Of a stretch of DNA of 26,632 bases, positions 4,553-26,608 are shown in pieces. Under the pieces are notes generated by a model. That model searched no databases. It was not told the origin of the DNA and worked only from the letters and a program-made list of their open reading frames with translations. How positions within the stretch are numbered: the stretch's first letter is position 1; each line of letters opens with the position of its first letter. Position numbers and translations under genes: made by a program. Origin of the DNA: a virus; the IMG/VR virus record IMGVR_UViG_3300036766_001879, positions 1 through 26,632 of that record. One strand, 5' to 3'.

Positions 4553-4738
4553 TCAGCCTTTTTTGCCGGCGCCCTGGACTTGCTGGGTGACCCGGTCGAA
4601 GGCCGGGCTGATCCAGCGGATGGCGACGAGGCGCGTGCCGGCGAAGCAGGGCAGCGGTGCGCTCTGCTGGTTGGTGGCGACGCTTTCCTTCTGGAAAGGC
4701 AGAAGGTTGACGGTGGCGGGAGTTTTAGACGAGGACAT
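4553..4738 (-). CDS. Small conserved-position tail cluster protein
   Basis: This is a 61-residue protein, MSSSKTPATVNLLPFQKES to VQGAGKKG. It starts at 4738, 14 bases inside the end of the NlpC-like gene, and stops three bases before the tail-tip start. That tight packing supports a real, translationally coupled gene. It is basic with a Lys/Gly-rich C-terminus and no membrane helix. I do not recognise a family. By position it may be an assembly or attachment factor of the tail tip. Confidence 0.65.
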   Translation of the reverse strand: MSSSKTPATVNLLPFQKESVATNQQSAPLPCFAGTRLVAIRWISPAFDRVTQQVQGAGKKG

Positions 4739-5135: not shown

Positions 5136-5195
5136 TGGTTTCTCGCGACAAACGCGACGGGCGCGACGGTTTCGGATTTTAGAATTTGGGACCGG
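5136..5195 (-). repeat. Spacer repeat upstream of the NlpC-like gene
   Basis: The 60-base spacer, read on the minus strand, holds CCCAAATTCTAAAATCCG followed by a GC-rich CGTCGCG...GTCGCGAGA block and then the ATG. This is the same A-rich and CTCGCG-type vocabulary seen in other late-gene spacers, here with the two parts in the opposite order. Confidence 0.55.
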
Positions 5196-7286: not shown

Positions 7287-7367
7287 GGCGAGCAGCGGTA
7301 AGCGGTAAGCTTTAAGCGATAAGCGGCGGGGTTCGGCGACCCCGCCCTACAACGGAGGAGGTGGGGA
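7287..7367 (-). repeat. Spacer with palindromic GGCGGGGT/ACCCCGCC repeat and a TAAGC repeat
   Basis: Bases 7325-7332 and 7339-7346 form an 8-bp perfect stem with a six-base loop, followed by CTAC. The same ~26-base unit occurs at 16300-16325 and, with one change, at 26484-26509. Bases 7295-7326 hold repeats of AGCGGTAAGC/AGCGATAAGC. The tape measure stop flanks one side and the distal tail start the other. The hairpin lacks a U-tract. Confidence 0.8.
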
Positions 7368-10300
7368 TCATGCGCGGCTTCGCTGTTCGTAAACTTCGTG
7401 CGCGAGGCCGGTGAGATCGTTCTGCACGGCGTCGAGCCACGCACTGCGGTCGAGGTAAATGTGGATGTTGCGCGCGCTGTCGCGGCCGCTGGCGGCCGAG
7501 CCTCCAACACCTGAGTTTGCGGACGTGGCGCTCGTGGCCCTGGTGGCCCTGGTGGCGCCGGAGTCCGCATAGTAGTCGTAGTTGCCCGCGGGCGCGCTGG
7601 TGCTGAAATCGTAACCGCCGGCGGACTGGCCGGAGAGACCGAGCATTTTTTTGAAAACATTCTGTCCCGCCGGATGCAGCAGATTATCGGCGGCGCGCTT
7701 GAGCCCAACCTCCGGGTGCAGCGGGTTGAAAAAAAACTGTTTGAAAAGGCCGCCGAAAAAGCCACCCGAGGAGAAGCCCGGCGCGCCTTGCCGCGCGGCT
7801 TCGAGGCCGGCGATCTGTGCGCCGTAGAGCGGATGGCGCGTCATCCACGCTGGCGCGACCCACTCGTTGGCATGGACGACACCCATCACTTCGTTCGAGC
7901 CACCGCGACCGGTCGGGCCACCCGTTTTGAAACCGCCGAAGGCCGCCATCGCGGCGAGGATCGCGGCGACGCCCACGGCGGCGGCGATGCCGAAGGAAGA
8001 GATGGAGGTCAGCACGGCGCCGGGCGTCTTGGCCACGGTGTCGGCCGTGCCTTCCTCTGCGCTGAAGAGGATATTTTTCACGGCCGCCATGCCGCGGTTG
8101 ACGATCCACGTGGTGAACATGTCGGCGATGGCCTTGGTGATGCCGCCCATGATCGGGCCGGCGATGTTGCCGAGTTTCTGCGACCAGTAGGTGGTGTCGC
8201 CGATCAGTTTTTGCAGGCCGGCCGAGGCGTTGGCAAAGGCTTCGCCGAAACCGCTGGCGATCGACTGCTGCCACGTGCCCATCTGCTCCTGCACCGCGGT
8301 GAGTTTGGATTTTAGCTGCGCGAGAAAGTTCATGGGATCGGCGCCGAGCCGGCCTTGCTCGCCCTGGGCGGCGCCGAGCCGCTTGCCGAGGCCGGCAGCG
8401 GCCGATTCGTGCTGGTTCTTCACACTGAGATCGGTCGCGGCCTTCACGCGATCCTGCTCCAGTTTCAGCGCGGTTTGCAGCGCGGCGATTTCCTCCGCGA
8501 TCGCCTTTTTGCGCTCGCCCCACTTCTCGGCGGCGGTGCGGGTGTAGTCGGCCTCCAGCGTGATGAGATTTTCGCGGATGGCGGTGAGCTGATTTTCGAG
8601 CGCGAGTTTTTGCGCCTCGATCTGTTTGCGCGCGGCGGCCTGCGCCTGCTTTTTTTCGTCGGCCTGGTCGCGCGCGGCTTCGAGCTGCTGCACGAGGATG
8701 AGGTCCTGGCCTTCGAGCCCGAACTTTTCGCGCAGGGCCTCGATCTCGCGCTTGAGGTGCGCGGCGCCGGCCTCGTCGCCGGCGCTGGCTTTTTCGAGGG
8801 CCGAGGTTTCGAGCACGAGGATCTGCCGCTTCAGCTCCTGCTCCGCGGTTTTCTTTTTTTCCTCGGTGAGCTTGGCCGTGGCCTCGGTTTCCTTTTTGAC
8901 GATCTCGAAGAGTTCGTTCTCGAGATTTTTTTGCTTGGCCGCAGTGGCCTCGGGCGAAAGACCCGCGGGCGTAGGCGCGGAGAGCTGGCGCTCGACCGAG
9001 GCGCGACGGCCGCGCAATTCCAGCAGTTGCTGCGCGGGATCGAGCGTCTCGAACCTGAGCTTGTCGTTCTTCTCCGTGATCTGCGTGATCTGGTCGACGA
9101 GCGGCTTTAGCGAGGCCTCCATCGCGTTGAGCTGATTGGTGGCGAGGTTCGCGGCGGCCTGCACCTGGTTCGCGAGCTGCACCTTGATGAAGGCGCCGAG
9201 CTTGGTGGCGGCGGCGCTGACGGTGTCGAATTTATCCTGGGCGTCCGGGTCGTAGTGGTCAGTGCCCTTGCGGTTGGCTTCGAGCTGGGCGGCGAGGCGC
9301 TTGCGCTCGGCCATGAGTTCGTCGAGCTTGGCTTGGGCGGCGGCCAGCGTCGCGGCCTGTTGGTCTGAAGTGAGATCCTGCGCGGCCCGGTCGCCAACCG
9401 CCTGGGTGGGCGCGCCGCGCCCTTGCGCCTCCGCGAACATTTTCTGGATTTGGTAATCGTTCCATGCGGCGATGATGCCCAGCACAAGCTGCGCGGTGAC
9501 GGCGGCCGCGAGCAGGTAGGGATTCCACGCGGCCGCATCGGCCATGCCGTTGCTGACGCCGCGCACGAAGGAGCGCGCGGTGCCCTCTTCCATTTTGGCG
9601 AGCAGGCCGTAGAGCGCGGAATCGACTTTGCCGAAAGAGTAGAGCAGCGCGCCCGAGCCGAGCAGACCCGCGCCCGAGGCGCCGAGAAAGGCACCCGCAC
9701 CGCCGAGGCTGAGATGGCCCAGCAGGCCGGCAATCGTCTGCAGCGTGGGCAGCAACTGCGCGGCCGCGACCTGCCACATCTCGCGAAGTTTCGCCGTCAC
9801 GCCGTTGAACTGGACTTCGAGCTCGTGCGCAGCGCGGGCGTTTTGCGCGATGCGGCCGGCGAGGCCGCCGGCCTGTTCCTGCGCACGCGCGAGCGCCTCG
9901 GGATCGCCGAGGAGCTGGAGCATCTGGCCGCCGCCGCGGCCGAAGAGTTCACGGGCGACCGACACTTTGTCGCTCTGGTTGGCGAGATTGGCGAAGCCCC
10001 GGCTGAGCACGTCGAGCTGCTGGGCGTAGGCGAGCGGCTTCAGCTCGGCGATGCTGGTGCCGATCCGGCGAAACGCGGTCTCGGTTTTTCCGCCCATGTC
10101 GTTCACGCCGCCGAGCGAGCGCTGCAGCATGTTGGCCGAGAGGCCGATCATCTCCGCGCCGAGACCGGCGTTGCGAAACGCCTGGTCGAGCACGACCAGA
10201 TTGCGCACGTTCTCCCCGGTGCGCGCGGCGAGGTGCTCGAACGAGGCGGCCTCGTCGATCGCGCCCTTCACCTTGTCCCAGGCCAGACCGACGCCGAGGG

Positions 10301-10424
10301 CGGCGGTGGCCATGCGGCCGAGGCTGCCGGCCATGTCGCCCAGGCTGGCGTTGACCTTGCCGACCGAGCGCGCGACTTCCTCGGTGCCGACGGCGGTGAA
10401 GATCAGTTCGACGAGGGAGGACAT
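7368..10424 (-). CDS. Tail tape measure protein
   Basis: This 1018-residue protein sets tail length and travels with DNA into the cell. The N-terminus is MSSLVELIFTAVGTEEVARS. Hydrophobic stretches lie near residues 225-270 and 300-320 and again near 830-860. Between them is a long Ala/Glu/Lys/Gln-rich coiled coil at about 355-745. The C-terminal part has GGPTGRGGSNEVMGVVHANEW, typical of tape measure ends in transposable siphophages. ATG at 10424 is preferred over a longer open frame because the upstream in-frame codons are the A-rich spacer repeat. At roughly 1.5 angstrom per residue the length would imply a tail near 150 nm. It directly follows the frameshifted chaperone genes, as in lambda-like phages. 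Confidence 0.95.
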   Translation of the reverse strand: MSSLVELIFTAVGTEEVARSVGKVNASLGDMAGSLGRMATAALGVGLAWDKVKGAIDEAASFEHLAARTGENVRNLVVLDQAFRNAGLGAEMIGLSANMLQRSLGGVNDMGGKTETAFRRIGTSIAELKPLAYAQQLDVLSRGFANLANQSDKVSVARELFGRGGGQMLQLLGDPEALARAQEQAGGLAGRIAQNARAAHELEVQFNGVTAKLREMWQVAAAQLLPTLQTIAGLLGHLSLGGAGAFLGASGAGLLGSGALLYSFGKVDSALYGLLAKMEEGTARSFVRGVSNGMADAAAWNPYLLAAAVTAQLVLGIIAAWNDYQIQKMFAEAQGRGAPTQAVGDRAAQDLTSDQQAATLAAAQAKLDELMAERKRLAAQLEANRKGTDHYDPDAQDKFDTVSAAATKLGAFIKVQLANQVQAAANLATNQLNAMEASLKPLVDQITQITEKNDKLRFETLDPAQQLLELRGRRASVERQLSAPTPAGLSPEATAAKQKNLENELFEIVKKETEATAKLTEEKKKTAEQELKRQILVLETSALEKASAGDEAGAAHLKREIEALREKFGLEGQDLILVQQLEAARDQADEKKQAQAAARKQIEAQKLALENQLTAIRENLITLEADYTRTAAEKWGERKKAIAEEIAALQTALKLEQDRVKAATDLSVKNQHESAAAGLGKRLGAAQGEQGRLGADPMNFLAQLKSKLTAVQEQMGTWQQSIASGFGEAFANASAGLQKLIGDTTYWSQKLGNIAGPIMGGITKAIADMFTTWIVNRGMAAVKNILFSAEEGTADTVAKTPGAVLTSISSFGIAAAVGVAAILAAMAAFGGFKTGGPTGRGGSNEVMGVVHANEWVAPAWMTRHPLYGAQIAGLEAARQGAPGFSSGGFFGGLFKQFFFNPLHPEVGLKRAADNLLHPAGQNVFKKMLGLSGQSAGGYDFSTSAPAGNYDYYADSGATRATRATSATSANSGVGGSAASGRDSARNIHIYLDRSAWLDAVQNDLTGLAHEVYEQRSRA

Positions 10425-10545
10425 TTTATTTTCGATTTTGGATTCCCGGTTTTGGATTGCCGGCGCGACCTTCGCGGGCGGCGCGAGCAACTATTTTCTG
10501 CTTTTGGATTGGGCGTCGCAGTCGTGGCGGCCGGCGCGAGGAACT
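10425..10545 (-). repeat. Spacer with two copies of the CTCGCG block plus AATCCAAAA leader
   Basis: Read with transcription, the spacer holds CTCGCGCCGGCCGCCACGAC followed by CCAATCCAAAAGC. A second CTCGCGCCGCCCGCGAAGG unit follows, then GGCAATCCAAAACC and GGAATCCAAAATCG just before the tape measure ATG. This is the fullest example of the recurring late-gene leader. No Shine-Dalgarno site is present. Confidence 0.75.
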
Positions 10546-11144
10546 TTATGTTTCGTGAATGGTTTTCAGCAGTTCGGCGGCGAGGTCGGCGTAGCCCTGG
10601 CCGCCGGCGAAACCGCAGTTGACGGCTTGCATGAGGTCGAGGCGCTGCTGGGCGCGGCGGCGGGCGCCGGCGCTCAGGTAGCGCCGGAGGGCGGCGGGGG
10701 TGTGGTGGCAGACGCGCTCGGGGTCGGCGCCGCAGCAGCCGTGGGCGGCGGCATCGTCGGCGAGGCGGTTCCACCCGGCCAGGCGACCGAGGGCATAGGT
10801 GACGAGCTCAGCCCATCCAGCAATTTTAACGTCTGGCCGAGCTGCAGCATGAGCGGGCCCACCTTCAGGCCGGCGATGGGATCGCTCATCGTCATCTCCA
10901 TCGCCTTCGAGAAATTTAGCCGGATGCACTCGGCGCAGAGGCGGTTGTAGCAGTCGTCGGCGAGCGAGTCGATCCAGCCGAGGTTTTGGCGGAAGCTGAG
11001 GGCGACGATTTCCGGGGTGCGGCCCTCGACGAGGAGATCGATGAACTTGCGGCGGCCGGTGATGGGGAGCGGCTCCAGGGGGAGCGACTCTTCGAGCCCG
11101 GCGGCCGCGCCCGGCAGCGGGAGATATTTGATGAGTTGGTTCAT
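10546..11144 (-). CDS. Tail assembly chaperone, -1 frameshift fusion (lambda gpGT analogue)
   Basis: A -1 shift at G TTA AAA (10830-10824) would join codons 1-107 of the chaperone gene to a second open frame that starts with codon ATT at 10824 and stops at 10548-10546, about 199 residues in all. The heptamer is in exactly the right register: zero-frame codons TTA (10829-10827) and AAA (10826-10824). The shifted frame encodes a well-composed sequence (IAGWAELVTYALGRLAG to LAAELLKTIHET), unlike the zero-frame tail. The second frame has a possible own ATG at 10929, but no ribosome site is visible there. In tailed phages the fusion is made at low frequency and the T part contacts the tube. Confidence 0.75.
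10674..11144 (-). CDS. Tail assembly chaperone, unshifted product (lambda gpG analogue)
   Basis: This 156-residue protein is upstream of the tape measure gene. The first ~107 residues (MNQLIKYLPLPG to LMLQLGQTLKLL) look like a compact helical protein. After the proposed slip site the zero-frame tail turns into Pro/Ala/Ser/Thr low-complexity sequence, as expected if the other frame is the selected one. In lambda-like phages such chaperones coat the tape measure during tail assembly and recruit tube subunits. The start ATG at 11144 follows an A-rich leader. Assignment rests on gene position plus the overlapping frame and slippery site. Confidence 0.8.
   Translation of the reverse strand: MNQLIKYLPLPGAAAGLEESLPLEPLPITGRRKFIDLLVEGRTPEIVALSFRQNLGWIDSLADDCYNRLCAECIRLNFSKAMEMTMSDPIAGLKVGPLMLQLGQTLKLLDGLSSSPMPSVAWPGGTASPTMPPPTAAAAPTPSASATTPPPPSGAT
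10824..10830 (-). promoter_or_regulatory. Putative -1 ribosomal frameshift site G TTA AAA
   Basis: The sequence GTTAAAA on the minus strand sits where the two chaperone frames overlap, in the zero-frame phasing required for a -1 slip. The A-site tRNA re-pairs perfectly (AAA to AAA). The P-site change TTA to GTT is imperfect but resembles GUUAAAC, a slippery site used by equine arteritis virus. I did not find an unambiguous downstream stimulatory hairpin. Confidence 0.7.
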
Positions 11145-11213
11145 GGGAAATTTTCGGTTTGGGATTGCGGATTTGGGCTGGCCGGCGCGGGCGGCGCGAG
11201 AAACTTTCCGGGC
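11145..11213 (-). repeat. A-rich leader spacer upstream of the tail chaperone gene
   Basis: Read with transcription, the fiber stop is followed by CTCGCGCCGCCCGCGCCGG, then CCCAAATCCGCAATCCC and AAACCGAAAATTTCCC immediately before the ATG at 11144. It has the same block order as at 10425-10545. No Shine-Dalgarno site is visible. Confidence 0.7.
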
Positions 11214-13703
11214 TCAGTAGAGCCGCACCGCCACGAGGCTCGTGCCGGCCGCGGTGGCGTCGAGCGTGCCCGCGCCGAGGCCGGCGCTGACTTGGGCGTA
11301 GATTTTCAACGAGTCGTCGGTGTTGGCCGTGGTGTAGACAAACGGCGGGAGCGGGAAGATGCCGTAGGTCTGGCTCAGCAGCGTGGCCGCCGGCAGGGCG
11401 AGCGCCACGACCTGGCTGACATCGGCGGCCGTGTGGTTCGTGCGCCGCACTTTTATGGTCGCGGTTTCACCCGAGATCGTGGCCCCGTCGAGGGCGAGTT
11501 GCACCTGGGCGAAGACGAGCCAGGTGCCGGCCTGGTCCAGCACCTGGGCCGGCGAGGTGGTGCCAAACGTCACCGCGGCGGCGGTGGCGGTCAGGGCATA
11601 GGCGGTGCCCGCGCCGTAGACCGCGAGCGGGTAGTTTACCTGGCCGGTGGCGGTGAAATAATTTCCCGTGGCCGTAACTTTGCCGGGGAGCGTCAGGCCC
11701 GCCGCATCGAGGCTGGCCCAAGAATTAGCGCGAACGCCGTCCGACCCATTGAAAAAAAATGGAGCACTGTCGGAGCGAAACATGACCCCCGCTCCTTCAC
11801 TGTGGGTTGTTCCCCAGACATTGGTGTATAATCCAACGTCGTTGGAGTAAATTGCTGTCCTCGCAGTCGCACTGGAATCTGTGCTGTCATTACCGGCCTC
11901 CAGCACTAGCCGCTGCCCATTAATGGCACCATAGGCTTTCAGAGCGGTGGTTTCCAGGCCGGTGGAGGTGATCTTGGCCCAGTAGCTCGTGGTGGGGTCG
12001 GCGGGGTTGTTGCCGGCGAAGTAGAAGGGGGCGTTGGGCTGGTTGAAAAATAAATGCCCGCTTGGGGCATAGCTGGCGAGGGACGAATACCCAGCCTGAT
12101 ACTCTGCCGCTGAAGTGGCGTAACTTGGGTCAACTGTGAACAGTTCAACATAGTTTCCTGCACCGGTATCGGCGTAAAAACCTGCCGTGGCATCCACAGA
12201 CGATGAGGCATACAAAACGAGGTCGGATTCCTTCCCACCATTGGAAACAATGTTCATCTGCGGGGTTTCACCCCCGACATTGAACGTAATTATTCCATTT
12301 CCTTTTGCGCGGAGGTTCAAATTCAAATCCGCCGTCGTGCCGGTGCGCGCAATCCCGGTGGCCGAGAGCGTCAGCCCGTCCGCGCCCGCGCTCGCGGCCC
12401 GCTCCAGGTCGCTCGTGATGAGGCCGCCGGCGAAGGAGCCGCCGCCCGCCGGGGTGGCCCAGGTGCCGTCGCCGCGCCAGTAGGTCGTGTTGCCCGCGTC
12501 CGTGCCGCCATTGAGGTTGCTAACCGAGAGGTTGCCGGTCACGGCGGTGGCAAGCGGGAGGTCGGTGACGGTGTTGCTCGCGCCGGAGAGGGTGTGGTTG
12601 GTGAGCGTGACGGCGGCGGCGTTTTTGGCGGCGTCGCCGGTGTTGTCCACGTTGCCGAGCGCGAGGTCGGCGGCGGTGACGGTGACGTTGGCGCTGAGGG
12701 CGTAGCCGTTGACGGTGCGGGCGGCGGGCACGGCGGCGTTGACCGCGCCGCCCCACGGTTTCCAGACGAGCGCGCCGGCGGCGTCGAAATAGAGCAGGGT
12801 GTTGCCGGCACTCTCGCCGGTGGGCGGGGCGGATTTCCAAGCGCCGCGGAAGCCCGCGGCGGTCTCGATCAGCGCGCTCGAATAGAGGACGAGGTCGGTC
12901 TGCATGCCGAAGTTGTCCCAGCCCAGGGCGGTGGTGCCGTTGGGGCTGGTGAGGACGCGCGAGTTGAAGTCGAGGATGGGGTTGCCCGCGCTGTCTTTGA
13001 GCGCGTAGGTCCAGGAGCGGGCGCCGGCGGCGGTGGCGGTGAGGACTTTGCCGTCGGTGCTGGGGTTGCCGAGGGCGGCTTCGGCCCCGAGCGTGGCGCG
13101 CGCGGCGGCGGCATCGGCCCCGGCCGCCAGCGTGCGGCCGAAACTGGTGAAGGCCGTCACGGCCGCCGTGCCGCTGCCGGTAAAATAGGGCAGCTTGTCC
13201 GCCGCGCTGGTCAGGCCGCCCAGCGCGCCCAGGTTGGCGGAGTAGGCTTGCACCTGGGTGCCGACGACGAGGCTCAGGTCGGCCGGGGTGACCGTGACGT
13301 TGCCGGAGAGGGCATGGCCGTTGACGGTGGTGCTGGTGAGGGCGCGGTTGCCGAGGGCGGAGTTGAGGTCGCTCTGGCTGCCCAGCGTGCCGGTGATGCT
13401 GCCCCAGGTGCCGCCGCCGGCGCTCAAGCCGGTGACGGTGGCGTTGCCGGAGACGGCGAGGGTCGAGCCAGCGCCGAGCGTCAGCGTGCGGCCGGTGCCG
13501 AAGGTGAGGTCCTCGTTGATCAGGTTCGAGCCGTCGGTCTTCTTGGTGACGGGGCCGTTGGGCGTGTTGGTCGCATGGAGCGCGGCGGCGGCCAGCAAGC
13601 TGAAAGCGACAAGCTTCAGACTGCGGCAGCCGGGGAAAATTGTGTCCGGCGGCGCGGTCTTCGCGGACGGCGCGAGAAAACAGGGAGAGAGGAGGTTTTT
13701 CAT
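11214..13703 (-). CDS. Tail fiber-like protein with N-terminal hydrophobic signal segment
   Basis: This 829-residue protein is rich in Ala, Gly, Thr, Ser and Asn with typical fiber repeats. VNGHALSGNVTVTPADLSL near the N-terminal third is echoed by VNGYALSANVTVTAADLAL further on, and TLAAGADAAAARATLGA is a classic fiber linker. The last ~120 residues are beta-rich and look like a C1q/TNF-like receptor-binding head. The N-terminus has LKLVAFSLLAAAALHA at about residues 29-44, a Sec-signal-like helix. Residues ~9-26 are encoded by a spacer repeat element (13632-13686). Bases about 11720-12330 are visibly less GC-rich than the rest, suggesting exchange of the receptor-binding region. Location between tail tube and chaperones is unusual for a fiber. 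ATG at 13703 was chosen because a longer frame would overlap the upstream gene. Confidence 0.75.
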   Translation of the reverse strand: MKNLLSPCFLAPSAKTAPPDTIFPGCRSLKLVAFSLLAAAALHATNTPNGPVTKKTDGSNLINEDLTFGTGRTLTLGAGSTLAVSGNATVTGLSAGGGTWGSITGTLGSQSDLNSALGNRALTSTTVNGHALSGNVTVTPADLSLVVGTQVQAYSANLGALGGLTSAADKLPYFTGSGTAAVTAFTSFGRTLAAGADAAAARATLGAEAALGNPSTDGKVLTATAAGARSWTYALKDSAGNPILDFNSRVLTSPNGTTALGWDNFGMQTDLVLYSSALIETAAGFRGAWKSAPPTGESAGNTLLYFDAAGALVWKPWGGAVNAAVPAARTVNGYALSANVTVTAADLALGNVDNTGDAAKNAAAVTLTNHTLSGASNTVTDLPLATAVTGNLSVSNLNGGTDAGNTTYWRGDGTWATPAGGGSFAGGLITSDLERAASAGADGLTLSATGIARTGTTADLNLNLRAKGNGIITFNVGGETPQMNIVSNGGKESDLVLYASSSVDATAGFYADTGAGNYVELFTVDPSYATSAAEYQAGYSSLASYAPSGHLFFNQPNAPFYFAGNNPADPTTSYWAKITSTGLETTALKAYGAINGQRLVLEAGNDSTDSSATARTAIYSNDVGLYTNVWGTTHSEGAGVMFRSDSAPFFFNGSDGVRANSWASLDAAGLTLPGKVTATGNYFTATGQVNYPLAVYGAGTAYALTATAAAVTFGTTSPAQVLDQAGTWLVFAQVQLALDGATISGETATIKVRRTNHTAADVSQVVALALPAATLLSQTYGIFPLPPFVYTTANTDDSLKIYAQVSAGLGAGTLDATAAGTSLVAVRLY
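13632..13686 (-). repeat. 55-bp repeat copy inside the fiber gene (pairs with 15587-15641)
   Basis: This segment matches 15587-15641 at 53 of 55 positions. The other copy is in an intergenic spacer. Here it is read in frame as fiber codons ~7-24, between the initiating MKNLLS residues and the hydrophobic signal segment. Confidence 0.9.
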
Positions 13704-13722
13704 TTTCGGAGAAGTTCGGGGC

Positions 13723-14229
13723 TCAGAGTTGCACGAAGACGAAGGCGTTGGTGCCGGCGTGGTAGTTCGCCGGGCGGACGAGGCCGGGGAGCGCCGGCGC
13801 ATCGGTGCCGGCGCGCACCTGGTAGCTTTTCAGCTCGGTCGCGACGGTGCCCTGGATGATGCGGCCGACATCGTGCGGGGCGACGGTGAGGTGATCGAGG
13901 GCGGCGGCCGAGCCGGTGAGTTCGACAAAGGCGGGAGAAAAGGTGGCGGGCATGACGAGGAGGGGAGTGGGTGAGGTGACGTCCACGCCGGTGCCGGCGG
14001 GATAGGTGGTGGGCGTGTAGTCCGCGATGCTGACGTCGTCCGGCGCGATGGCCGACGGCGCCGCGGGCGTGGTGTGGCCGGGGGCGGTGCCCGTCGGCGC
14101 CTCGGGCGTGGTGTGGCCGGGGGCGGAGTTGCTGGGGGACGAGGGCGCCGTATGACCGGGCGCCGTGGCGGAGGGGATCGCGGGCGTGGTGTAATCGATG
14201 ATTTCCGGCGGAGTCGTCGTGTAGGGCAT
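13723..14229 (-). CDS. Pro-rich repeat protein between tail tube and fiber genes
   Basis: This 168-residue protein starts MPYTTTPPEIIDYTTP. Residues 23-61 are three tandem 13-residue repeats: APGHTAPSSPSNS, APGHTTPEAPTGT and APGHTTPAAPSAI. At DNA level two of these share an exact 23-base direct repeat (14065-14087 and 14104-14126, period 39). The C-terminal ~100 residues look globular and beta-rich (LLVMPATFSPAFVELTGS to TNAFVFVQL). I do not recognise a family. A Pro-rich stalk joining a globular domain suggests a structural linker, perhaps for the neighbouring fiber. An in-frame upstream ATG exists at 14325, but its codons are spacer repeat, so 14229 is preferred. Confidence 0.65.
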   Translation of the reverse strand: MPYTTTPPEIIDYTTPAIPSATAPGHTAPSSPSNSAPGHTTPEAPTGTAPGHTTPAAPSAIAPDDVSIADYTPTTYPAGTGVDVTSPTPLLVMPATFSPAFVELTGSAAALDHLTVAPHDVGRIIQGTVATELKSYQVRAGTDAPALPGLVRPANYHAGTNAFVFVQL

Positions 14230-14338
14230 GGGGGGATTTTCGATTTTTCGATTCTCGATTTTGGATTGCGGAGGATTTTGGATTGGGCGTCGCGGCCTTC
14301 GCGGGCGTCGCGAGACCCAATCCAAAACCGCAAATGAC
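14230..14338 (-). repeat. Spacer with 12-bp inverted repeat around a CTCGCG core and A-rich leader
   Basis: TTTTGGATTGGG (14276-14287) and CCCAATCCAAAA (14316-14327) are perfect inverted arms around a GC-rich core. Downstream with transcription come CCGCAATCCAAAATCG, GAATCG and AAAAATCGAAAATC, then the ATG at 14229. The leader motif therefore occurs in both orientations here. Confidence 0.8.
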
Positions 14339-14896
14339 TCAGGCGAGCGTGCCGACGTTGAGCGTCGAGTAGAGGACCGTGGCCTCGATGGGCGTCTCGG
14401 CGGCCTTGTCGTCGTTGTTGGTGTCGCCGCTGGCCTTGATCGCGACCCAGAGGTCGACGGTGTTGATCAGCGTGTTGAACTGGTCGTATTCCTGGACGTG
14501 CAGCCAGGCGCGCACGACCGGCGAACCGGCGAGCGGATTGTGCACGCCACCGGCGGTGGCGGGGATCGCGAGCGGCGCCGTGGCGAGCGCGAGCTGGTAG
14601 GCGAGGTTGGACTGCTTCTCGATTTTGCCGGTGTATTTCAGGCCCTTCGAGAGCACGATCTCATCCTCGACGACGTAGGCGCCGGGCTGCGGTGACATGT
14701 ATTCCTCGGTCTTCGAGGTGGGCTTTTTGGCCCATTTGATCGGGCCGGCGGAGAGCCAGCCGGTGTCGGTGATGCCGGGCTTGGCGGTGCCGCTGGCGGC
14801 GCCGGCAGATGGCAGGGTGAAGGCCACGCCCTCAAGGAAGAACTGAGAGAGCGAGCCGATGACAACGCGACGGACATTCAGGGCGGAGTCGGACAT
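14339..14896 (-). CDS. Major tail tube protein
   Basis: This 185-residue protein starts MSDSALNVRRVVIGSLSQFF. It has the size, position and alternating beta composition of siphovirus tube proteins. It includes DTGWLSAGPIKWAKKPTSK and AYVVEDEIVLSKGLKYTG, and ends in EATVLYSTLNVGTLA. It lies after the tail terminator candidate and before fiber, chaperone and tape measure genes. It is cytoplasmic until assembled, with no signal peptide. No sequence-level family match is claimed; the call rests on order, length and composition. Confidence 0.75.
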   Translation of the reverse strand: MSDSALNVRRVVIGSLSQFFLEGVAFTLPSAGAASGTAKPGITDTGWLSAGPIKWAKKPTSKTEEYMSPQPGAYVVEDEIVLSKGLKYTGKIEKQSNLAYQLALATAPLAIPATAGGVHNPLAGSPVVRAWLHVQEYDQFNTLINTVDLWVAIKASGDTNNDDKAAETPIEATVLYSTLNVGTLA

Positions 14897-15068
14897 GGTT
14901 TTATGTGGTTAGGGGTTGCTGACGATTTTCGATTTAGATTTTCGAGTTGGGATGGGCCGGAAATTTTCTCGCGACGAGCGCGGATGGGATCTATTTTGAA
15001 TTTGGGATTTTCGCCGGGTCGGCGCGGTCGGCGCGGCCGGCGCGAGACAAGTTTTGGTTTAGATGGGA
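14897..15068 (-). repeat. 172-base spacer with two leader-type repeats before the tail tube gene
   Basis: With transcription: TCTCGCGCCGGCCGCGCCG, GCGAAAATCCCAAATTC, a CTCGTCGCGAGAAAATTTCC palindromic block, then CTCGAAAATCTAAATCG and AAAATCG. About 30 bases of other sequence (CAACCCCTAACCACATAAAA) precede the ATG at 14896. It is the longest repeat-filled spacer inside the tail module, and no gene was seen in it. The distance suggests room for a separate promoter, but none was recognised. Confidence 0.65.
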
Positions 15069-15536
15069 TCAGAGGAGGCGGAGGCCGGCGGTGACATAGA
15101 TCTCATGGACGGTGCAGTTCGCCGGCGCGTCGACGCGGCGCTGGTGGCCGGTCACGCGGAAGAAATCGTGCGGCCGCTGGGCGGGCGGCGCGGTGGGCTG
15201 CACACTTTGGCCGTGAATCGCCGCGAGGGCGGCCGCGAGGGCATCGAGCGCGCTGTGCGCGGGATCGGTCTGCGGGTTGTGCACGATCGAGACGTTGAGA
15301 TCCTCCAGCGTGACGAGGGCCTCGTAGTCGCCGGCGCCCTCCATCGCCTTGCCGGAGGCGGTGGTGATGACGACGCCGAAGCCGAGCGGCAGCAGGGAAT
15401 TTTCCACCTGAAACTCCAGGCCGGCGATTTTCTCGGTGAGGATCTGCGCGGGCGACAGGCCGGCGAAATAACTTGCGGCCGCGACGAGCGCCGCGAGCCG
15501 CTCCTGGAGCGCGAAAAAGGGATTGGGCGTGGGCAT
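15069..15536 (-). CDS. Tail terminator / minor tail protein candidate
   Basis: This 155-residue protein is MPTPNPFFALQERLAALVAA to YVTAGLRLL. Its N-terminal helix followed by beta segments (FGVVITTASGK, EALVTLEDLNVSIVHNP, HEIYVTAG) fits the gpU-like tail terminator fold, and its place just before the tail tube gene is the standard one. A clear ribosome site, AGGAGG, is centred ~10 bases before the ATG at 15536; this is an exception in this region. The call is by position and composition. Confidence 0.65.
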   Translation of the reverse strand: MPTPNPFFALQERLAALVAAASYFAGLSPAQILTEKIAGLEFQVENSLLPLGFGVVITTASGKAMEGAGDYEALVTLEDLNVSIVHNPQTDPAHSALDALAAALAAIHGQSVQPTAPPAQRPHDFFRVTGHQRRVDAPANCTVHEIYVTAGLRLL

Positions 15537-15648
15537 CAGGAAATGCCTCCTGCCTGGGGTCTCGCGACGCCCGCGACGGGCGCGACGGGGAAAATTGTTT
15601 CCGGCGGCGCGGTCTTCGCGGGCGGCGCGAGAAAACAGGGAAAGGAGA
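15537..15648 (-). repeat. Spacer carrying second copy of the 55-bp repeat
   Basis: Bases 15587-15641 match 13632-13686 at 53 of 55 positions, in the same orientation. The rest of the spacer holds a CTCGCGACGCCCGCGACGGG palindrome-like block and the AGGAGG site of the next gene. The two copies enclose three tail genes. Confidence 0.9.
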
Positions 15649-16284
15649 TCATGAACTGCCTCCGGTGGGGCCGTGGCGGCGGAAAAAGGCCTGGGCGGTG
15701 GCGCCGAGGGCGGCGCCGAGCTGCGCGGCCGGGGGCAGGGCCTGCGGGTCTTTCGGCACAGTGACCTGCGGCACGAGCCAATAATAAAAGGTGAGGTTCG
15801 CGAATTTGCCCGTGCCCTCTTTTTTCACGAGGTAGGCGCCGTTCGTCGCGGTGAGGCGCAAAACGAAGAGCCCTGGGATGCGCGAGTGCTCCTTGTCGCC
15901 GGGCGAGCCGGTGGCATAGGCCTCGGCATTCATCGGGAGGGTGAGCGCGCGGCGGCCCTGCGTCGGGCGGATGGTGGCGCCGTCGATCTTCGCGGCGAGC
16001 GCGGGATCGGCGACGACGACGGTGGCGGAGTCGGCCGTCGTCTTCGACGGATCGAAGGCGGTGCGCTTCGCGATGCGCGACCAGAAGTGCTGGCGCGGCC
16101 AGCCCATCTTGTTGGGGTTTTCCGAGTCGCGCCGCACGAACCAGGCGCGCAGCTCCTGCTCGGCGCGCAGGCCCACGGCCTTCATCAGATCGCGCTGCGC
16201 CTCGGGCGAGGTGAGCAGATCGTGCACGAGCGCGACATCGCGCGAGGCCTCGTCGCGGCGGGCTTTGACGATGACGTAGCTCAT
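15649..16284 (-). CDS. Mu G-like virion morphogenesis / tail completion protein
   Basis: This 211-residue protein is MSYVIVKARRDEASRDVALV and following. An N-terminal helical part (LLTSPEAQRDLMKAVGLRAE) leads to MGWPRQHFWSRIAKRTAF, resembling the family's Trp/Arg segment around residues 80-95. A beta-rich middle and a basic Gly/Ser end follow. Homologues (Mu G, P2 S type) act in tail completion or head-tail joining. It follows the F-like gene as in Mu, although the pair has moved downstream of the capsid gene. The start ATG at 16284 overlaps by ATGA the end of a short open frame in the preceding spacer. Confidence 0.7.
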   Translation of the reverse strand: MSYVIVKARRDEASRDVALVHDLLTSPEAQRDLMKAVGLRAEQELRAWFVRRDSENPNKMGWPRQHFWSRIAKRTAFDPSKTTADSATVVVADPALAAKIDGATIRPTQGRRALTLPMNAEAYATGSPGDKEHSRIPGLFVLRLTATNGAYLVKKEGTGKFANLTFYYWLVPQVTVPKDPQALPPAAQLGAALGATAQAFFRRHGPTGGSS

Positions 16285-16456
16285 GCGGCACCTCTGGGCG
16301 GCGGGGTTCGGCGACCCCGCCCTACCACCGGGCTTGCAAACCGCGGGCAGAGGTGTTGCATGGTGACTGCGCGACGGGGGGCGGCTTGGACGTAAAGCAC
16401 CGGGAGCCGCGAAAGCGGTGGTATCGGAGCACCCGACGGCAGGCGGAGGGCGGCTG
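16285..16456 (-). other. Spacer with palindromic repeat and a possible 59-codon ORF
   Basis: Bases 16300-16325 hold the GGCGGGGT/ACCCCGCC palindromic repeat. An open frame from ATG 16460 to TGA 16281 would encode 59 residues (starting MTAALRLPSG). It overlaps the F-like gene stop by ATGA and the G-like gene start by ATGA. That double coupling is suggestive. However, the C-terminal codons are the repeat itself and the composition is Pro/Arg-rich, so the frame may exist only because stops are rare at this GC. Listed as a possibility. Confidence 0.4.
16300..16325. repeat. Palindromic repeat, copy 2
   Basis: This has the same unit as 7325-7350: GGCGGGGT, loop TCGGCG, ACCCCGCC, then CTAC. The 8-bp stem is perfect. 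It lies in the spacer between the F-like and G-like genes. Confidence 0.9.
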
Positions 16457-17758
16457 TCATGGCCGCCCTCCCTCTTTTTTGACGTAGAGCGTTTTCAGGC
16501 CCCAGGTGCCGGCGGGCTCCGCGCCGGCCGCCACGCCACGATCGAAGGTCACGAGCGTGCGCCGGCCCGCGAGGTCGGCCGTGAACACCAGTGTGCCGGG
16601 CTTGCCACCGGCTTTGACGGCATCAGGCGCCCGCCAAACCTGCGGAATGAGCTGGAAATCCATCGCGGTCAGCGGGCGCTGAGCGGGATCGGTCTCGCCG
16701 GCGCCAGGGCCGAGCGCCGCTGGTAAGCCGTGCTCTTTCAGGGCATGGCGCAATTCACCCGCCTGCAGCACCAAGCGATCATCGGCGAGATCGACGCCGG
16801 CCTGCTGCGCGGCGGCGATGGCCGCCGGGGTGGCCTCGCCCAGATCGAGCGACCATTTGCCCTGAGGATCGGCGAGGGCCTCCTCGAACAGCCGCTGCAC
16901 GCGCTGGCCCTGCCAGGTGATCTTGCCGTCGCGGGGGCTGACGTCGACCTGGTCGCCGAAGCTCGCCTTGAACCTTTCGAGGAGGGCGGGCGTGGCCTCG
17001 GGCACGCTGGCCGACAGGTTGTGGTTGAAATCGAGGTGCTGCGGCTCGGGTGCGGGCGCTTCGGGCCCGATCACGCCGAGCTGTTCCGCCTCCTCGCGGC
17101 TCACATCGGCCAGGCCCATGCCGCTCATGAAATCGAACGGCGGCCATGGCCGGCCGAAGCGGGAAATCCTGCTCCAGATCGGATCGTCCTTCCGGGCAAT
17201 CATGCGGCCGCCCACGAAGTCGCCGCCGGCGGCGGCCCAGCGCGCGGGCCAGCTCTCGCCGGGCACCTCGATCAGGCGGCCGTGCGCGCCCTTGCGGTAG
17301 CCGCGCGGCACCTCGCGGTGCTCGACGCGGATGAGTTCGTTGCACGGGAAGGCGTCGAGGATCGCGGGGTCCTGCCGGGCGAGCCAGCGGCCATATTCCA
17401 TCGCATCCTCAACCTGGAAATCGTAAATGAGGCCGAGGCGCTTGGCGCTGGTGAGGTCGGTGAGCTCGCCGCTGTCGCCGGGCGCGGCGCCGAGGACGGT
17501 GCGCAGACTGGCGATGAACTTGTCGCGCGACATGAACGCGCCGCCGTCGCGCCGGGTGAGGGTGAGCGCATCGCCGATCCGCGACTGCATTTCCGCGAGC
17601 GTGCGCATATCGTTCACGCGCGCGGAGAAAAACGCGCGGTCGCGCAGGCCCACGCCGATCTCCTGCCACTGCGCCGACGAGAGCGCGGCGGCGACGGGAG
17701 TCTTGGACTCGAGGCGGGCCACGGCGGCGGGAAAGGGTTCGGGGGCGGTGAGGAGCAT
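16457..17758 (-). CDS. Mu F-like head morphogenesis protein with C-terminal PBECR-like nuclease domain
   Basis: This is a 433-residue protein. The first ~250 residues resemble the MuF minor head family: WQEIGVGLRDRAFFSARVN near 30-50 and RPWPPFDFMSGMGLADVSRE near 205-224. MuF proteins sit at the portal, and a few copies may be ejected with DNA. The last ~80 residues follow a different pattern: RPLTAMDFQLIPQVWRAPDA, then beta strands TLVFTADL and RRTLVTFDRG, and GLKTLYVKK. This matches my recollection of the PBECR nuclease-like domains often fused to MuF or portal proteins. The start ATG at 17758 overlaps the preceding stop by one base. No immunity gene is obvious, although the short frame just downstream is in the right place. 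Confidence 0.75.
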   Translation of the reverse strand: MLLTAPEPFPAAVARLESKTPVAAALSSAQWQEIGVGLRDRAFFSARVNDMRTLAEMQSRIGDALTLTRRDGGAFMSRDKFIASLRTVLGAAPGDSGELTDLTSAKRLGLIYDFQVEDAMEYGRWLARQDPAILDAFPCNELIRVEHREVPRGYRKGAHGRLIEVPGESWPARWAAAGGDFVGGRMIARKDDPIWSRISRFGRPWPPFDFMSGMGLADVSREEAEQLGVIGPEAPAPEPQHLDFNHNLSASVPEATPALLERFKASFGDQVDVSPRDGKITWQGQRVQRLFEEALADPQGKWSLDLGEATPAAIAAAQQAGVDLADDRLVLQAGELRHALKEHGLPAALGPGAGETDPAQRPLTAMDFQLIPQVWRAPDAVKAGGKPGTLVFTADLAGRRTLVTFDRGVAAGAEPAGTWGLKTLYVKKEGGRP

Positions 17759-18096
17759 CAGGCGGCCTTTTCCTCTCCAGCAGTCGCGGGCAGACGGCCC
17801 GCCACGGCGCGGGTGAGTGCATGGAGCTGTGCGAGCGTGTCGCCCTCATACCAGCGGAACGTTTCGTTGTAGACGAACGTCGCGGTGCCGGCGGTTTTGG
17901 CCGTGCTGATCAGTTCGACCACGCGCTGGAGCAATGCCTGCTCCCATTTCGCGAGCGTCTTTTTGTCTGGAACGAGTTCGTTCGTGGCGAGGCCATGGCA
18001 GAGCGCCACGCGCAGTTTGCCCAGGGCGGCGATGTCGGGCGCGCGGGCGATCTGCTCCAGGATCGCCGGCCGGTAAGTGGTGAGGACTCGGCTCAT
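17758..18096 (-). CDS. Unknown 112-aa head-region protein
   Basis: This is a mostly helical, soluble 112-residue protein, MSRVLTTYRPAILEQIARAP to ATAGEEKAA. The ATG at 18096 lies two bases after the stop of the adaptor candidate. Its own TGA shares one base with the start of the F-like gene, so the three genes appear translationally coupled. I do not recognise a family. Its place suggests a head-tail connector or small head protein. Confidence 0.7.
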   Translation of the reverse strand: MSRVLTTYRPAILEQIARAPDIAALGKLRVALCHGLATNELVPDKKTLAKWEQALLQRVVELISTAKTAGTATFVYNETFRWYEGDTLAQLHALTRAVAGRLPATAGEEKAA

Positions 18097-18098
18097 GG

Positions 18099-18548
18099 TC
18101 AGTAGGCGGTCTCCCTGGAGAACTGGCGCGGGCGGGATTTCGTGACGGGGACGACGACGGAGGTCTGCACGGGGGCGACGGCGACCGGGGTGTCGGCCGT
18201 CTCAACCGGCCACTGGCCGAGGCGGATTTTGTCCAGGCGCGCCTCATAGGTGCGCTCGTCGGTTTTCTCGTCGTCGGTGAGCGGCAGGCTGACGGCCTTC
18301 GAGCAGTCGCGGACCATTTTCTTGACCGCGAGGTCGAGCAGGCTGTGCGGGATCTTCGTCGTGTCCTGGTCGACCAGATATTTCCCGGAAAAACCGATGG
18401 CACCGCGCAGCTCGGCCGTGATGTTGGCGATCGCGGCCGGCGCGGGATCGGGCAGCGACTTGGCCGCCGCGATCGTGCGGATGGTCGCGACCTTGCCCGA
18501 GGCGCTGGAGGCGTTCAGGTGGGCGAGAACGATGGCGGTCCAGTTCAT
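18099..18548 (-). CDS. Head-tail adaptor candidate (Mu gp36-like position)
   Basis: This 149-residue protein is MNWTAIVLAHLNASSASGKV and following. A helical core (PHSLLDLAVKKMVRDCSKAV, then LTDDEKTDERTYEARLDKI) fits small connector proteins placed after the major capsid gene. The C-terminal ~35 residues are Val/Pro/Thr-rich and probably disordered. The start lies directly after the leader repeat, with no Shine-Dalgarno site. The call is by position and general fold only. Confidence 0.6.
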   Translation of the reverse strand: MNWTAIVLAHLNASSASGKVATIRTIAAAKSLPDPAPAAIANITAELRGAIGFSGKYLVDQDTTKIPHSLLDLAVKKMVRDCSKAVSLPLTDDEKTDERTYEARLDKIRLGQWPVETADTPVAVAPVQTSVVVPVTKSRPRQFSRETAY

Positions 18549-18652
18549 CGAATTTTCGATTTTGGATTGCGGATTTTGGATTTCCGGAATCGGAGGAGTT
18601 CTAGGGAGCCGCGCGGCGTGGGCGCGCCGCGCAGCTCGAAGAACCCACCGCG
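18549..18652 (-). repeat. Spacer with 13-bp imperfect hairpin and A-rich leader
   Basis: Arms 18606-18618 and 18625-18637 pair at 12 of 13 positions (GAGCCGCGCGGCG type). Next, with transcription, come AAATCCAAAATCCGCAATCC and AAAATCGAAAATTCG, which abut the ATG at 18548. The order is again hairpin, then A-rich leader, then start. No U-tract follows the hairpin. Confidence 0.75.
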
Positions 18653-19120
18653 CTAGTTGTTCCGCGTGATGGTGACGCTGTTGATCGTGAGGATCTGCGA
18701 GGAGCTGCCGTTGGTCACGGAGGCGAGCCGCGCATAGAGCACGTTGTCGGCGCCGGTGCCGGCGATCGGGGCCGGGAAGTTATAGAACCCGATCACGGGC
18801 GTGGCCCCCGTGGCGGCCACCGTGTAGACAAACGGCTTCACGGTCGACCAGGTGGTGCCGTCGAGCGACACCGCGAAACTGAACACCATATTTTCGGTGC
18901 CCGTGCTCGCGAGCTGGAAGTTGGGCATCACGGCAAACCCGCTGCCGGGTTTGAGCGTGAACGCCTGGCTCGTGATCGCCGCCGTGGTGCTGGTGCCCAC
19001 CGTGCTGGCGCTGAGCGTGAGCACCGTGACGTTGCGCGGGGTGACCTGGGCCTGGGCCAGCGGCACCGCCAGCACCAAGGCCAGCAGCCCCGCGAAGAGG
19101 AAGGAGAGGAATTTCTTCAT
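18653..19120 (-). CDS. Exported beta-rich protein between capsid and connector genes
   Basis: This 155-residue protein has a textbook Sec signal peptide: K2 K3, a hydrophobic core at residues 4-21 (FLSFLFAGLLALVLAVPL), and cleavage probably after AQA at 24. The mature ~131 residues are rich in Thr, Ser, Val and Ala with regular beta alternation (NVTVLTLSAST, MVFSFAVSLDG, ILTINSVTITRNN). Homologous families are not recognised. A virion decoration protein would not need export, so it could be a lysogenic-conversion (moron) protein, or the signal could have been captured. Its leader carries the common spacer motif and no ribosome site. Confidence 0.75.
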   Translation of the reverse strand: MKKFLSFLFAGLLALVLAVPLAQAQVTPRNVTVLTLSASTVGTSTTAAITSQAFTLKPGSGFAVMPNFQLASTGTENMVFSFAVSLDGTTWSTVKPFVYTVAATGATPVIGFYNFPAPIAGTGADNVLYARLASVTNGSSSQILTINSVTITRNN

Positions 19121-19168
19121 TTGGGATTTTGGATTTCCGATTTTGGATTGCGGCTGGGCGGGCGAGGC
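19121..19168 (-). repeat. A-rich leader upstream of the exported protein
   Basis: Read with transcription, CCGCAATCCAAAATCGG and AAATCCAAAATCCCAA run up to the ATG at 19120. There is almost no other sequence between the capsid stop and the start codon. Confidence 0.75.
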
Positions 19169-20131
19169 TCAGCTGATGTTCAGGCGCCTCACGCTGAGCG
19201 CGCTGGTCGCCTGGAGGTCGCGGCTCCAGTCGAGCAGGTGCCCGCGCCAGAGCTGGTTGGGCGCCTGGTAGCTGCGGACGCCGGCGGTGAAGGCGCGCGG
19301 CCCCACGGTGAAGGCCTTGAACGCGCTGGGATCGTAGATCGTGGCGTTGGGCACCGAGTAGTGGATGAGCAGGACGCCGTCGAAGATGCGCGCCTTCGAG
19401 GGGGCGACGCCGAGCTTCGTGGTGTCGTAGACGACGTTGGCCGCCATGATGTCGCAGGGGAAGAGCAGCGCGGCGTTGAGCTGCGCGAGCGAGATCGACT
19501 GCAGGGCGTCGGCCGCGCCGAAGACGGCGCGCGACTTGACCTTGGCATTGGCGCGGAGCTTGGCCCACACGCCGAGATCCATCGTGATTTTGACGTTTTG
19601 CGTCGAGCCCACGTCCTGCGAGAGCGCGAGGAGCAGGGCGTTGATCTGGTCGATCGGGTCGATGTCGGGGCTGGAGAACTGGCCCTGCCCCGCGACGGGC
19701 GAGGTGTTGGCCAGGACGAAGTCGCTCACGTCCTTCACGTGGGAGAGCGCCACCTTGTTCATCAGCGCGGCGATCTTGCCCTGGTCGAGCAGCTGCGCGG
19801 CGACGGGGTCGCCCTCGCTGCCGGCCTGCTGGTCCTCGACCTTGTCCACCCGCACTTCGAGGGCGTTGGGCGTGCAGTTGTAGAAGCCGTCGGTGGCGGA
19901 GAACTTGATGAGCGTGGGATCGCCACCGAGGGCGCGTTTGGTGTTCTCGGGCATGAACGAGTTCTTGTCGTCGAATTTTTTGAACTGGCCCTGCGCGCCG
20001 GGGACCGGCGTGGTGGGGGCGAGGCGTTCGGCCAGGGAAACGACGTCCTTGAGGTCGTTCCAGAGTCCTTGCGCGTAGGCCGTGAGCTGATAGTTCAGGG
20101 TGGCTGAACCGAGGGCGGAATTTAAAGCCAT
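19169..20131 (-). CDS. Major capsid protein
   Basis: This 320-residue protein is MALNSALGSATLNYQLTAYA and following. It has the length and place (after protease/scaffold and decoration genes) of a HK97-fold capsid subunit. Features include a helical N-arm (LWNDLKDVVSLAERLAP), a Gly/Pro-rich loop, and a C-terminal domain with KITMDLGVWAKLRANAK and RIFDGVLLIHYS. It ends in LQATSALSVRRLNIS. There is no signal peptide. The spacer before it contains a different short motif (CAACTCCCAACTC), not the AATCCAAAATC leader. Confidence 0.85.
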   Translation of the reverse strand: MALNSALGSATLNYQLTAYAQGLWNDLKDVVSLAERLAPTTPVPGAQGQFKKFDDKNSFMPENTKRALGGDPTLIKFSATDGFYNCTPNALEVRVDKVEDQQAGSEGDPVAAQLLDQGKIAALMNKVALSHVKDVSDFVLANTSPVAGQGQFSSPDIDPIDQINALLLALSQDVGSTQNVKITMDLGVWAKLRANAKVKSRAVFGAADALQSISLAQLNAALLFPCDIMAANVVYDTTKLGVAPSKARIFDGVLLIHYSVPNATIYDPSAFKAFTVGPRAFTAGVRSYQAPNQLWRGHLLDWSRDLQATSALSVRRLNIS

Positions 20132-20187
20132 GGGAATAATTTAGCTGAGTGCTATGAGTTGGGAGTTGAGCGATGCGGGAGGGGCGA
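20132..20187 (-). repeat. Spacer before the major capsid gene, second leader type
   Basis: On the minus strand CTCAACTCCCAACTCATAGC and ACTCAGCTAAATTATTCCC precede the ATG at 20131. This is A/C-rich and lacks a Shine-Dalgarno site, like the other leaders, but is a different sequence. It resembles a short dispersed spacer motif family; copies elsewhere in the genome cannot be checked here. Confidence 0.5.
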
Positions 20188-20808
20188 TCAGGCGATCGCG
20201 AGGATGCCCTGCGCGACGAGCGCGGTGTGGAGGGCGGCGAGCTTCGTGTGGTCGGCGTAGAAGTCGGCCTGGAGCTTGCCGGCCTCGGCCAGGAGCAGAT
20301 CGTAATCGGCCTTGGTCGGATTGACCGCGGTCGAGTTGAGCCCCGCGATGGTGCCGGCACTGGTTTCGGTGAGCGCGCCGGGCGCCGTGACGACGCTGGG
20401 CGCGGCCGTGGCGACCGGGCGGAAAACCACCGCGGCCACGAGCTGGCCGGCGACGGCGCCGGCGGGATCGGTGACGACGCCGCAGATGCAGCGCGCGTTG
20501 GGCGCGCCGGTGTCCTTGGTGAACGTGCCGTCGGCCGCCTGCTGCAGGTAATCGCCGAAGGCGAGGGCGGCGGAACCGGCGGCGATCTGCACGAAGCAGG
20601 CGAACGGAACCGCCCCGAGGATCGCGAGCGTGGATTGCCTGGCGGCGAGGTTGCCCTCCAGGACGAGGGCCTTGGCGGGCACGGTGGCGGAGTCGTTGAC
20701 GGCCACGGCGCCGGCGGTGATTTTGACGAGCTTGCCGAGCGCGGCGGAGAGATCGACCCCGGTGCACGGGACGACATTCGGGCCGGCGGAGAGAGATGAA
20801 TTACTCAT
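20188..20808 (-). CDS. Head decoration protein
   Basis: This is a 206-residue protein. The N-terminal ~130 residues resemble the DUF2190-type capsid decoration fold: VDLSAALGKLVKITAGAVAV, ALAFGDYLQQAADGTFTKD and GQLVAAVVFRPVA. The C-terminal ~50 residues are helical (KADYDLLLAEAGKLQADFYA). Such proteins bind the outside of the expanded shell and strengthen it. The gene lies between protease and capsid genes, the usual order. The start ATG at 20808 follows an A-rich leader. Confidence 0.75.
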   Translation of the reverse strand: MSNSSLSAGPNVVPCTGVDLSAALGKLVKITAGAVAVNDSATVPAKALVLEGNLAARQSTLAILGAVPFACFVQIAAGSAALAFGDYLQQAADGTFTKDTGAPNARCICGVVTDPAGAVAGQLVAAVVFRPVATAAPSVVTAPGALTETSAGTIAGLNSTAVNPTKADYDLLLAEAGKLQADFYADHTKLAALHTALVAQGILAIA

Positions 20809-20856
20809 GGTATTTTGGATTTTGGATTTTCGATTTCGGAAAAACGCGGAGCTGGG
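20809..20856 (-). repeat. A-rich leader upstream of the decoration gene
   Basis: Read with transcription, CCGAAATCGAAAATCC and AAAATCCAAAATACC run to the ATG at 20808. No Shine-Dalgarno site and no hairpin block are present in this copy. Confidence 0.7.
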
Positions 20857-26483: not shown

Positions 26484-26509
26484 GGCGGGGTTCGGCGATC
26501 CCGCCCTAC
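26484..26509. repeat. Palindromic repeat, copy 3
   Basis: This is the same unit as at 7325 and 16300, with one change in the right arm (ATCCCGCC instead of ACCCCGCC), which becomes a G-T or mismatched pair in the stem. Upstream of the terminase genes. Confidence 0.85.
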
Positions 26510-26608
26510 AAGCGGACAAAGGACCACGACGCGCCGGGATTGCGGAGCGATGCGGGGAGGCAATGGGAGCTGGGCATTCTCCGGTTGCCGGCGACATCGT
26601 GGAAAGTG

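Follow-up and report, generated by a model that had tools for sequence, protein, structure and literature searches.

Period-7 repeat arrays as candidate Shine-Dalgarno-independent leaders between co-directional genes of Opitutus-type bacteria and a Mu-like prophage

What does a short A-rich repeat do when it stands in front of one late phage gene after another, and does its sequence matter? The question is raised by an IMG/VR virus record of 26,632 nucleotides (26.6 kb, 67% GC), the whole of which was analysed here and is called the window. A preliminary description of this DNA had offered three possible roles for the repeat: a translation enhancer independent of Shine-Dalgarno (SD) sites, a boundary for module exchange between phages, or a mobile spacer repeat that tolerates only gene borders. 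The left edge of the window (1-1584) holds the host genes nadC and nadA, recognised by eye and by homology, so the prophage-host border of the record probably lies near 1585-1640. A MAG of Opitutia matches the window nadA at 82% identity and one of Opitutus at 77%; judged by sequence, the host of the virus is an Opitutus-type bacterium. The remainder of the window is a Mu-like prophage with every gene on the minus strand. Pfam searches identified a portal protein (PF06074, E 3e-36) and a Mu-like protease (PF10123, E 3e-16), and gave a weak terminase match under its cut-off; the capsid gene (19169-20131) was named from its position and from homologues in other Mu-like loci. Searches of the window yielded 0 Rfam matches and no tRNA, and a near-mode search of GenBank phages gave no nucleotide match to the prophage.

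The repeat is a heptamer tandem, (AAAATCS)n, where S is C or G, with the variants GCAATCC, GGAATCC and GAGAATC (Table 1). All seven spacers named in the preliminary description carry AAAATCC/AAAATCG arrays on the coding (minus) strand, as it had reported, and TRF independently returned period 7 at 14235, 14923, 18552, 19119 and 20812. The observation that the repeat mostly adjoins the ATG was also borne out: the last unit lies 3-6 nt before the ATG in 6/7 of these spacers and ~28 nt before it in 14897-15068. The proposed check by motif count, enrichment and strand bias was carried out with two-unit matches at a limit of 2 mismatches, 3 mismatches being too noisy. It gave 9 sense matches and 1 antisense match in window spacers against an expectation of 0.70 (maximum 5) from 500 Markov-simulated versions of these spacers, and 3 further sense matches of the AAAATCS pair were found inside window genes. 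Genes coupled by ATGA overlaps lack the repeat, as had been noted, and so do those with TAATG overlaps. AAAATCS does not stand alone, however: at least two heptamer units occur in the window, the other being GCTTACC (7294-7326), and an AACTCCC-like stretch precedes the capsid gene.

Table 1. Positions of repeat arrays, GC blocks and related leaders in the window
Feature	Position	Strand	Remark
AAAATCS array, leader of 206-aa gene (20188-20808)	20812..20842	-	ends ~4 nt before ATG; TRF
Heptamer array, leader of 155-aa gene (18653-19120)	19119..19152	-	TRF, motif matches
Heptamer array, leader of 149-aa gene (18099-18548)	18550..18585	-	downstream of GC hairpin at ~18600-18645 (fold)
Heptamer array, leader of 185-aa gene (14339-14896)	14920..14950	-	ends ~28 nt before ATG
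Second, degenerate array in spacer 14897-15068 (AAAATCCCAAATTCAAAAT)	14990..15015	-	motif matches
Right A-rich arm, leader of 168-aa gene (13723-14229)	14232..14288	-	TRF, motif matches
GC block TCTCGCGACGCCCGCGAAGGCCGCGACG, palindrome core	14287..14313	-	fold -43.2 kcal/mol
Left T-rich inverted arm (TTTTGGATTGGG; contains GGTTTTGGATTGGG)	14316..14336	-	soon after upstream stop
Degenerate heptamer array, leader of 156-aa gene (10674-11144)	11150..11177	-	motif matches
Heptamer array, leader of tape-measure-sized gene (7368-10424)	10425..10463	-	motif matches
GC block CTCGCGCCGCCCGCGAAGGTCGCGCCGG, upstream of the array at 10425..10463	10460..10487	-	sequence
Second array CCCAATCCAAAAGCAGAAA, after a second GC block, same spacer as 10425..10463	10494..10513	-	motif matches
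Degenerate eighth copy, ~30 nt before NlpC/P60-like gene (4725-5135)	5165..5191	-	GC block follows rather than precedes
GCTTACC heptamer array, leader of 696-aa gene	7294..7326	-	TRF; lag-7 test
G-poor AACTCCC-like leader without AAAATCS, gene in major-capsid position (19169-20131)	20132..20187	-	

The GC-rich block described as preceding several arrays is a less regular companion. It accompanies some of them (10460-10487 and 14287-14313, partially at ~11180 and ~15030) but also occurs without an array at ~13640-13672 and ~15600-15628. The exact block CTCGCGMCGCCCGCGAAG was found at 9 places in 6-7/252 family genomes; we therefore rejected the idea that it is a family-wide repeat and regard it as a local feature. 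In spacer 14230-14338 an inverted left arm is present, which makes the arrangement a palindrome, and this is the one window spacer with both arms. Palindromes of the GTAGGGCGGGGTCGCCGAACCCCGCC type occur elsewhere in the prophage (7325-7350, ~16300-16326 and ~26487-26513) and resemble GTAG REPs.

The leaders themselves share physical properties. No SD is present in the leaders of the seven named spacers, in agreement with the preliminary description. The mean MFE was -6.8 kcal/mol at repeat-led starts of the window versus -14.9 kcal/mol at other starts, and against swapped coding leaders the repeat leaders scored z +2.24, the other starts +0.49. We compared the leaders of the capsid gene in 21 phages whose capsid proteins are 28-69% identical in amino acid sequence. 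An SD was found in 0/21; the mean G content was 2.5 per 30 nt (range 0-7) and the mean MFE -5.8 for -35..+35, so that nearly all are G-poor and weakly structured. Pairwise leader identity was 0.32, with no common sequence. A lag-7 score of 11/14 was reached by 5/21, and many of the G-poor capsid leaders have no clear array, so the property does not depend on period 7. Comparison of homologous prophages, as had been suggested, thus gave a divided answer: the AAAATCS sequence is not kept, but G-poor, SD-less, loose capsid leaders are. Orthologues of gp433/gp211, which lie close to the upstream gene, had SD frequencies of 0.53/0.80, ~9 G per 30 nt and an MFE near -16, a contrast in G content with the capsid that arises in part because gp433/gp211 starts mostly fall inside the preceding coding sequence. 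The proposal of an SD-independent enhancer gains support from the folding energies and from the capsid starts, but its corollary, that the particular sequence is the signal, does not hold up, since at least 24 heptamers are used alike.

The same comparison bears on the suggestion that the repeat marks a recombination boundary for the exchange of phage modules. Many gene borders of one phage do carry the same repeat, which speaks for such a role, yet related phages lack AAAATCS at the homologous borders, so that the repeat gives them no homology in common; we find this explanation barely credible.

We also asked about the period independently of the unit sequence, scoring spacers of 25-330 nt for a run in which at least 12/14 positions match at a chosen lag. 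With lag 7, 12/99 co-directional spacers scored in an unselected 300 kb of the host-type genome G055, 15/116 in prophages picked solely by capsid homology and 8/68 in the window and its IMG/VR relatives. The rates of 43/201 in G006 and 25/149 in G119 are inflated because their loci were mostly chosen for AAAATCS, whereas G055 and the prophages were not so chosen. Overall, period-7 arrays occupy 12-21% of co-directional spacers in the family and its prophages. Divergent and convergent spacers scored 0/47 in G055, 0/53 in G006 and 2/44 in G119 (Fisher p 0.009, 2e-5 and 0.047 against co-directional spacers, respectively). Among other phyla 1/202 co-directional spacers scored (Fisher p 2e-6 versus prophages), and other lags either stayed close to the values of shuffled sequence or fell several-fold below lag 7. 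Upstream of starts in G001 and G003, pooled, there was no lag-7 excess; the class is therefore spread unevenly over the family. Host gene starts in these analyses came from a purpose-built 3-periodic Markov caller run on unannotated stretches.

The period is constant and almost confined to co-directional spacers, and the unit is variable: at least 24 heptamer unit families occur on the start side, with 7-9 families per host genome. C exceeded G in 48/57 start-side arrays, versus 9, and some G119 arrays are G-rich (TTGGAGC) and next to starts. Along host spacers, from stop to start, G becomes rarer (p 4e-5 and 3e-7), versus p 0.88 in other phyla; within long phage spacers the drop toward the start was just borderline (p 0.07). 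In unselected G055 an SD precedes 0.38 of starts with a gap of at most 10 nt and 0.07 of spacer starts. The mode of translation start in this host is mixed, SD and SD-less, and between sister species arrays alternate with SD/ATGA junctions. That hosts and prophages use so many different units points away from any single special sequence and toward a common way of building loose starts.

The AAAATCS repeat itself belongs to the host lineage as well. AAAATCSAAAATCS is present in 91/150 family genomes, with a reversed control near zero, and the heptamer unit occurs in 5/40 genomes of other groups, where it is rare. In the family genomes it often forms the right arm of a palindromic element that fills co-directional spacers. 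In G006 the full element runs from a stop through T-rich heptamers, two GC hairpins separated by a linker, and A-rich heptamers to an ATG; the two hairpins differ and are found there in both orders, which means that the core has no fixed orientation. All of its intergenic sites in G006 (24/24) fall between co-directional genes. Two claims of the preliminary description did not survive these findings. The repeat is not tied to start codons only, since in hosts the opposite arm borders stop codons and copies lie inside genes too. Nor does constant orientation by itself argue for function, since the A-rich arm of the full palindrome always faces the next start.

An element of this shape could act as an intercistronic RNA hairpin whose arms pair and join stop and start, for translational coupling or protection of the upstream mRNA. 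The full host element is predicted to fold into a long stem (-62.9 kcal/mol), the co-directional restriction is strong, and the same idea has been published for cyanobacteria, where STRR hairpins between hupS and hupL were suggested to serve transcript stability or translation coupling (PMC2670836). We nevertheless judge this explanation improbable: only one phage spacer has both arms, and on inspection the S letters of the host arms are often mismatched, so that pair conservation is not evident.

Sister genomes provide junctions that are filled, empty or swapped. At one junction of an apparent cobalamin transport operon, G055 shows ATGA coupling with an SD (AAGGAGGCAGGCATGAAAACC), and there G006, G083 and G106 carry the element right after that ATGA with a new ATG behind it; at this one site, loss from G055 cannot be told apart from gain in the others. 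G006 and G055 are syntenic over ~128 kb, and at several junctions of this stretch the two species hold different heptamer elements, for example AAAATCG versus GGAATGC/GCATTCC, and the genomes with such swapped elements are ~94% identical. Inside one protein-coding gene, both species have a palindromic heptamer element in frame at the same place (G006:C4:151453-151568 and the corresponding site of G055), and the two elements belong to different families. Of the traits of a MITE, terminal inverted repeats (the inverted heptamer arms) and an empty site (the G055 junction without the element) are present; the one clean filled/empty pair showed no clear target-site duplication, and no related transposase was identified. 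Furthermore, one 112-bp element copy gave 70-99 BLAST matches per genome in four genus mates, mostly with the same borders. The earlier suggestion of a mobile spacer repeat restricted to gene borders is therefore partly upheld for the host lineage, with 70-99 matches and filled and empty sites.

Intragenic copies were found in G119, G003 and G001 and in 80 virus loci, nearly always in the sense direction (29 sense versus 1 antisense in the virus loci). At the S position C or G outnumbers A or T by ~465 to 19 in 15 genomes, and C or G there keeps all six frames free of stops. AAAATCG arrays in G119 genes (L175, L164) encode KIENRKS-type stretches; one G119 array lies, by eye, in the linker of an apparent dihydrolipoamide acyltransferase and another in a uvrA-like gene. 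A small ORF at L142:6990-7481 stands between two half elements, one made of the left arm and a hairpin and the other of a hairpin and the right arm. By eye its product looks like a four-helix-bundle protein, and the arrangement gives the impression of an element that has captured a gene.

Could the repeat then be a passive or selfish dispersed heptamer element, with no role at starts, that survives where it is harmless, at co-transcribed borders and in flexible linkers? The high copy number with mostly constant borders in one genus, the filled and empty sites, the sense bias of the intragenic copies with their KIENRKS-like stretches and the stop-free choice at S all speak for it. Several observations fit it poorly: in the phage the left arm is hardly ever present, which leaves the A-rich side by the ATG, the property of the capsid-start leader is kept without its sequence, and mere tolerance does not obviously explain why 0/25 divergent spacers of unselected G055 hold a lag-7 array. 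We regard it as unlikely.

Many bacteria have an excess of heptameric repeats, the STRRs being the classic case. The present arrays resemble the STRRs of filamentous cyanobacteria (PMC2670836, PMC2408588) in their 7-bp units, several families per genome, location in operon spacers and hairpins, and both the host element and window 14226-14341 are predicted to fold in the STRR manner in co-directional spacers. They differ in occurring in Opitutus-type bacteria and phages, in having inverted heptamer arms around GC hairpins with the G-poor side by SD-less starts, and in being short (2-5 units). Intergenic heptamer tandems that are sometimes inverted and vary among close relatives are also known as GGGAATC and GGGGA(C/T)T in Xanthomonas and Nostoc, but those are G-rich and quadruplex-forming; among the explanations published for such a surplus is slippage governed by the footprint of the polymerase (PMC4692102). 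The element further recalls the REP/REPIN elements (GTAG and CGTC families), which are high-copy extragenic palindromes and of which the GTAG kind is reported to be abundant in Opitutus terrae (PMC3733652); unlike these, it shows on inspection hairpins with GGNA loops and no GTAG/CGTC terminal tag. RAYT (Y1_Tnp) genes are present in 4/4 host genomes, and 0/9 of those examined have an element within 1.5 kb; REPIN mobility driven by RAYT was rejected because the Y1_Tnp genes are not linked to the element.

A close parallel at starts is the TAACTGA repeat of marine Beggiatoaceae, which occurs in 2-6 forward copies ending a few nt before starts that mostly lack an SD, and for which a post-transcriptional role was proposed (PMC4679880). 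By analogy, the present arrays might be sites for a sequence-specific RNA- or DNA-binding regulator, and the similar layout favours this. The unit here is AAAATCS, however, with at least 24 units in place of one main unit, opposite arms after stops and carriage by phages; because the units vary among phages, spacers and orthologous junctions, no single protein would recognise all of them, and we consider a regulator site very improbable. Flavobacterium johnsoniae (Bacteroidetes) naturally lacks SD sites and tunes initiation by mRNA structure and base identity (PMC6847099); the available part of that report mentions no repeats as a means to this end, and unlike there, the mode here is mixed.

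On balance, we favour the reading that the window leaders are a local family of a lineage-wide period-7 intercistronic class and would serve as SD-independent translation leaders in the phage. The copies inside host genes weigh against it, as they cannot be leaders there. In the mechanism that we envisage, period-7 arrays, often the inverted arms of a GC-cored palindrome, would fill co-directional spacers in hosts and Mu-like prophages, and the right-hand array of the phage would be the SD-independent leader of virion genes. By keeping the 25-40 nt before the ATG low in G and in structure, the array may let the ribosome load without an SD on an mRNA of otherwise 67% GC. The unit sequence would not be the signal; a repeated, stop-free, G-poor heptamer could simply be a cheap leader to arise and persist. 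Both the better ribosome loading and the way in which arrays arise are steps that we infer. A stronger version, in which a rule that fixes the period and leaves the sequence free (tandem 7-mers with an exchangeable unit and a G-poor start side, rewritten from unit to unit at the same junction between sister species) is produced by a dedicated process beyond slippage and selection, is offered only tentatively and seems doubtful to us.

What is conserved here (period 7, a G-poor start side, co-directional spacers) separates cleanly from what is not, the sequence. The function of heptamers in bacteria is a long-standing question, and natural filled, empty and swapped junctions make it testable by simple reporters. 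For high-GC hosts, the heptamer arrays also provide a stock of leaders without an SD.

Several minor features were observed in the course of the analysis. Period 8 rather than 7 is apparent in a few arrays, among them the L436 capsid leader (AGCTTACT) and one in G055 near c4:102386 (CAGYCYTT). The 168-aa gene of the window carries 39-bp tandem repeats at 14045-14147 (GCGGTGCCCGACGGCGCCGCGGGCGTGGTGTGGCCGGGG). The ORF at 10674-11144 is overlapped by a second ORF in another frame that ends at 10546 (window 10546-11144), directly before the tape-measure-sized gene, a layout that we take to be usual for a frameshift-made pair of tail-assembly chaperones. Finally, contigs C1 and C2 of G276 hold 7 capsid homologues in one genome, which fits several Mu-like prophages per host.
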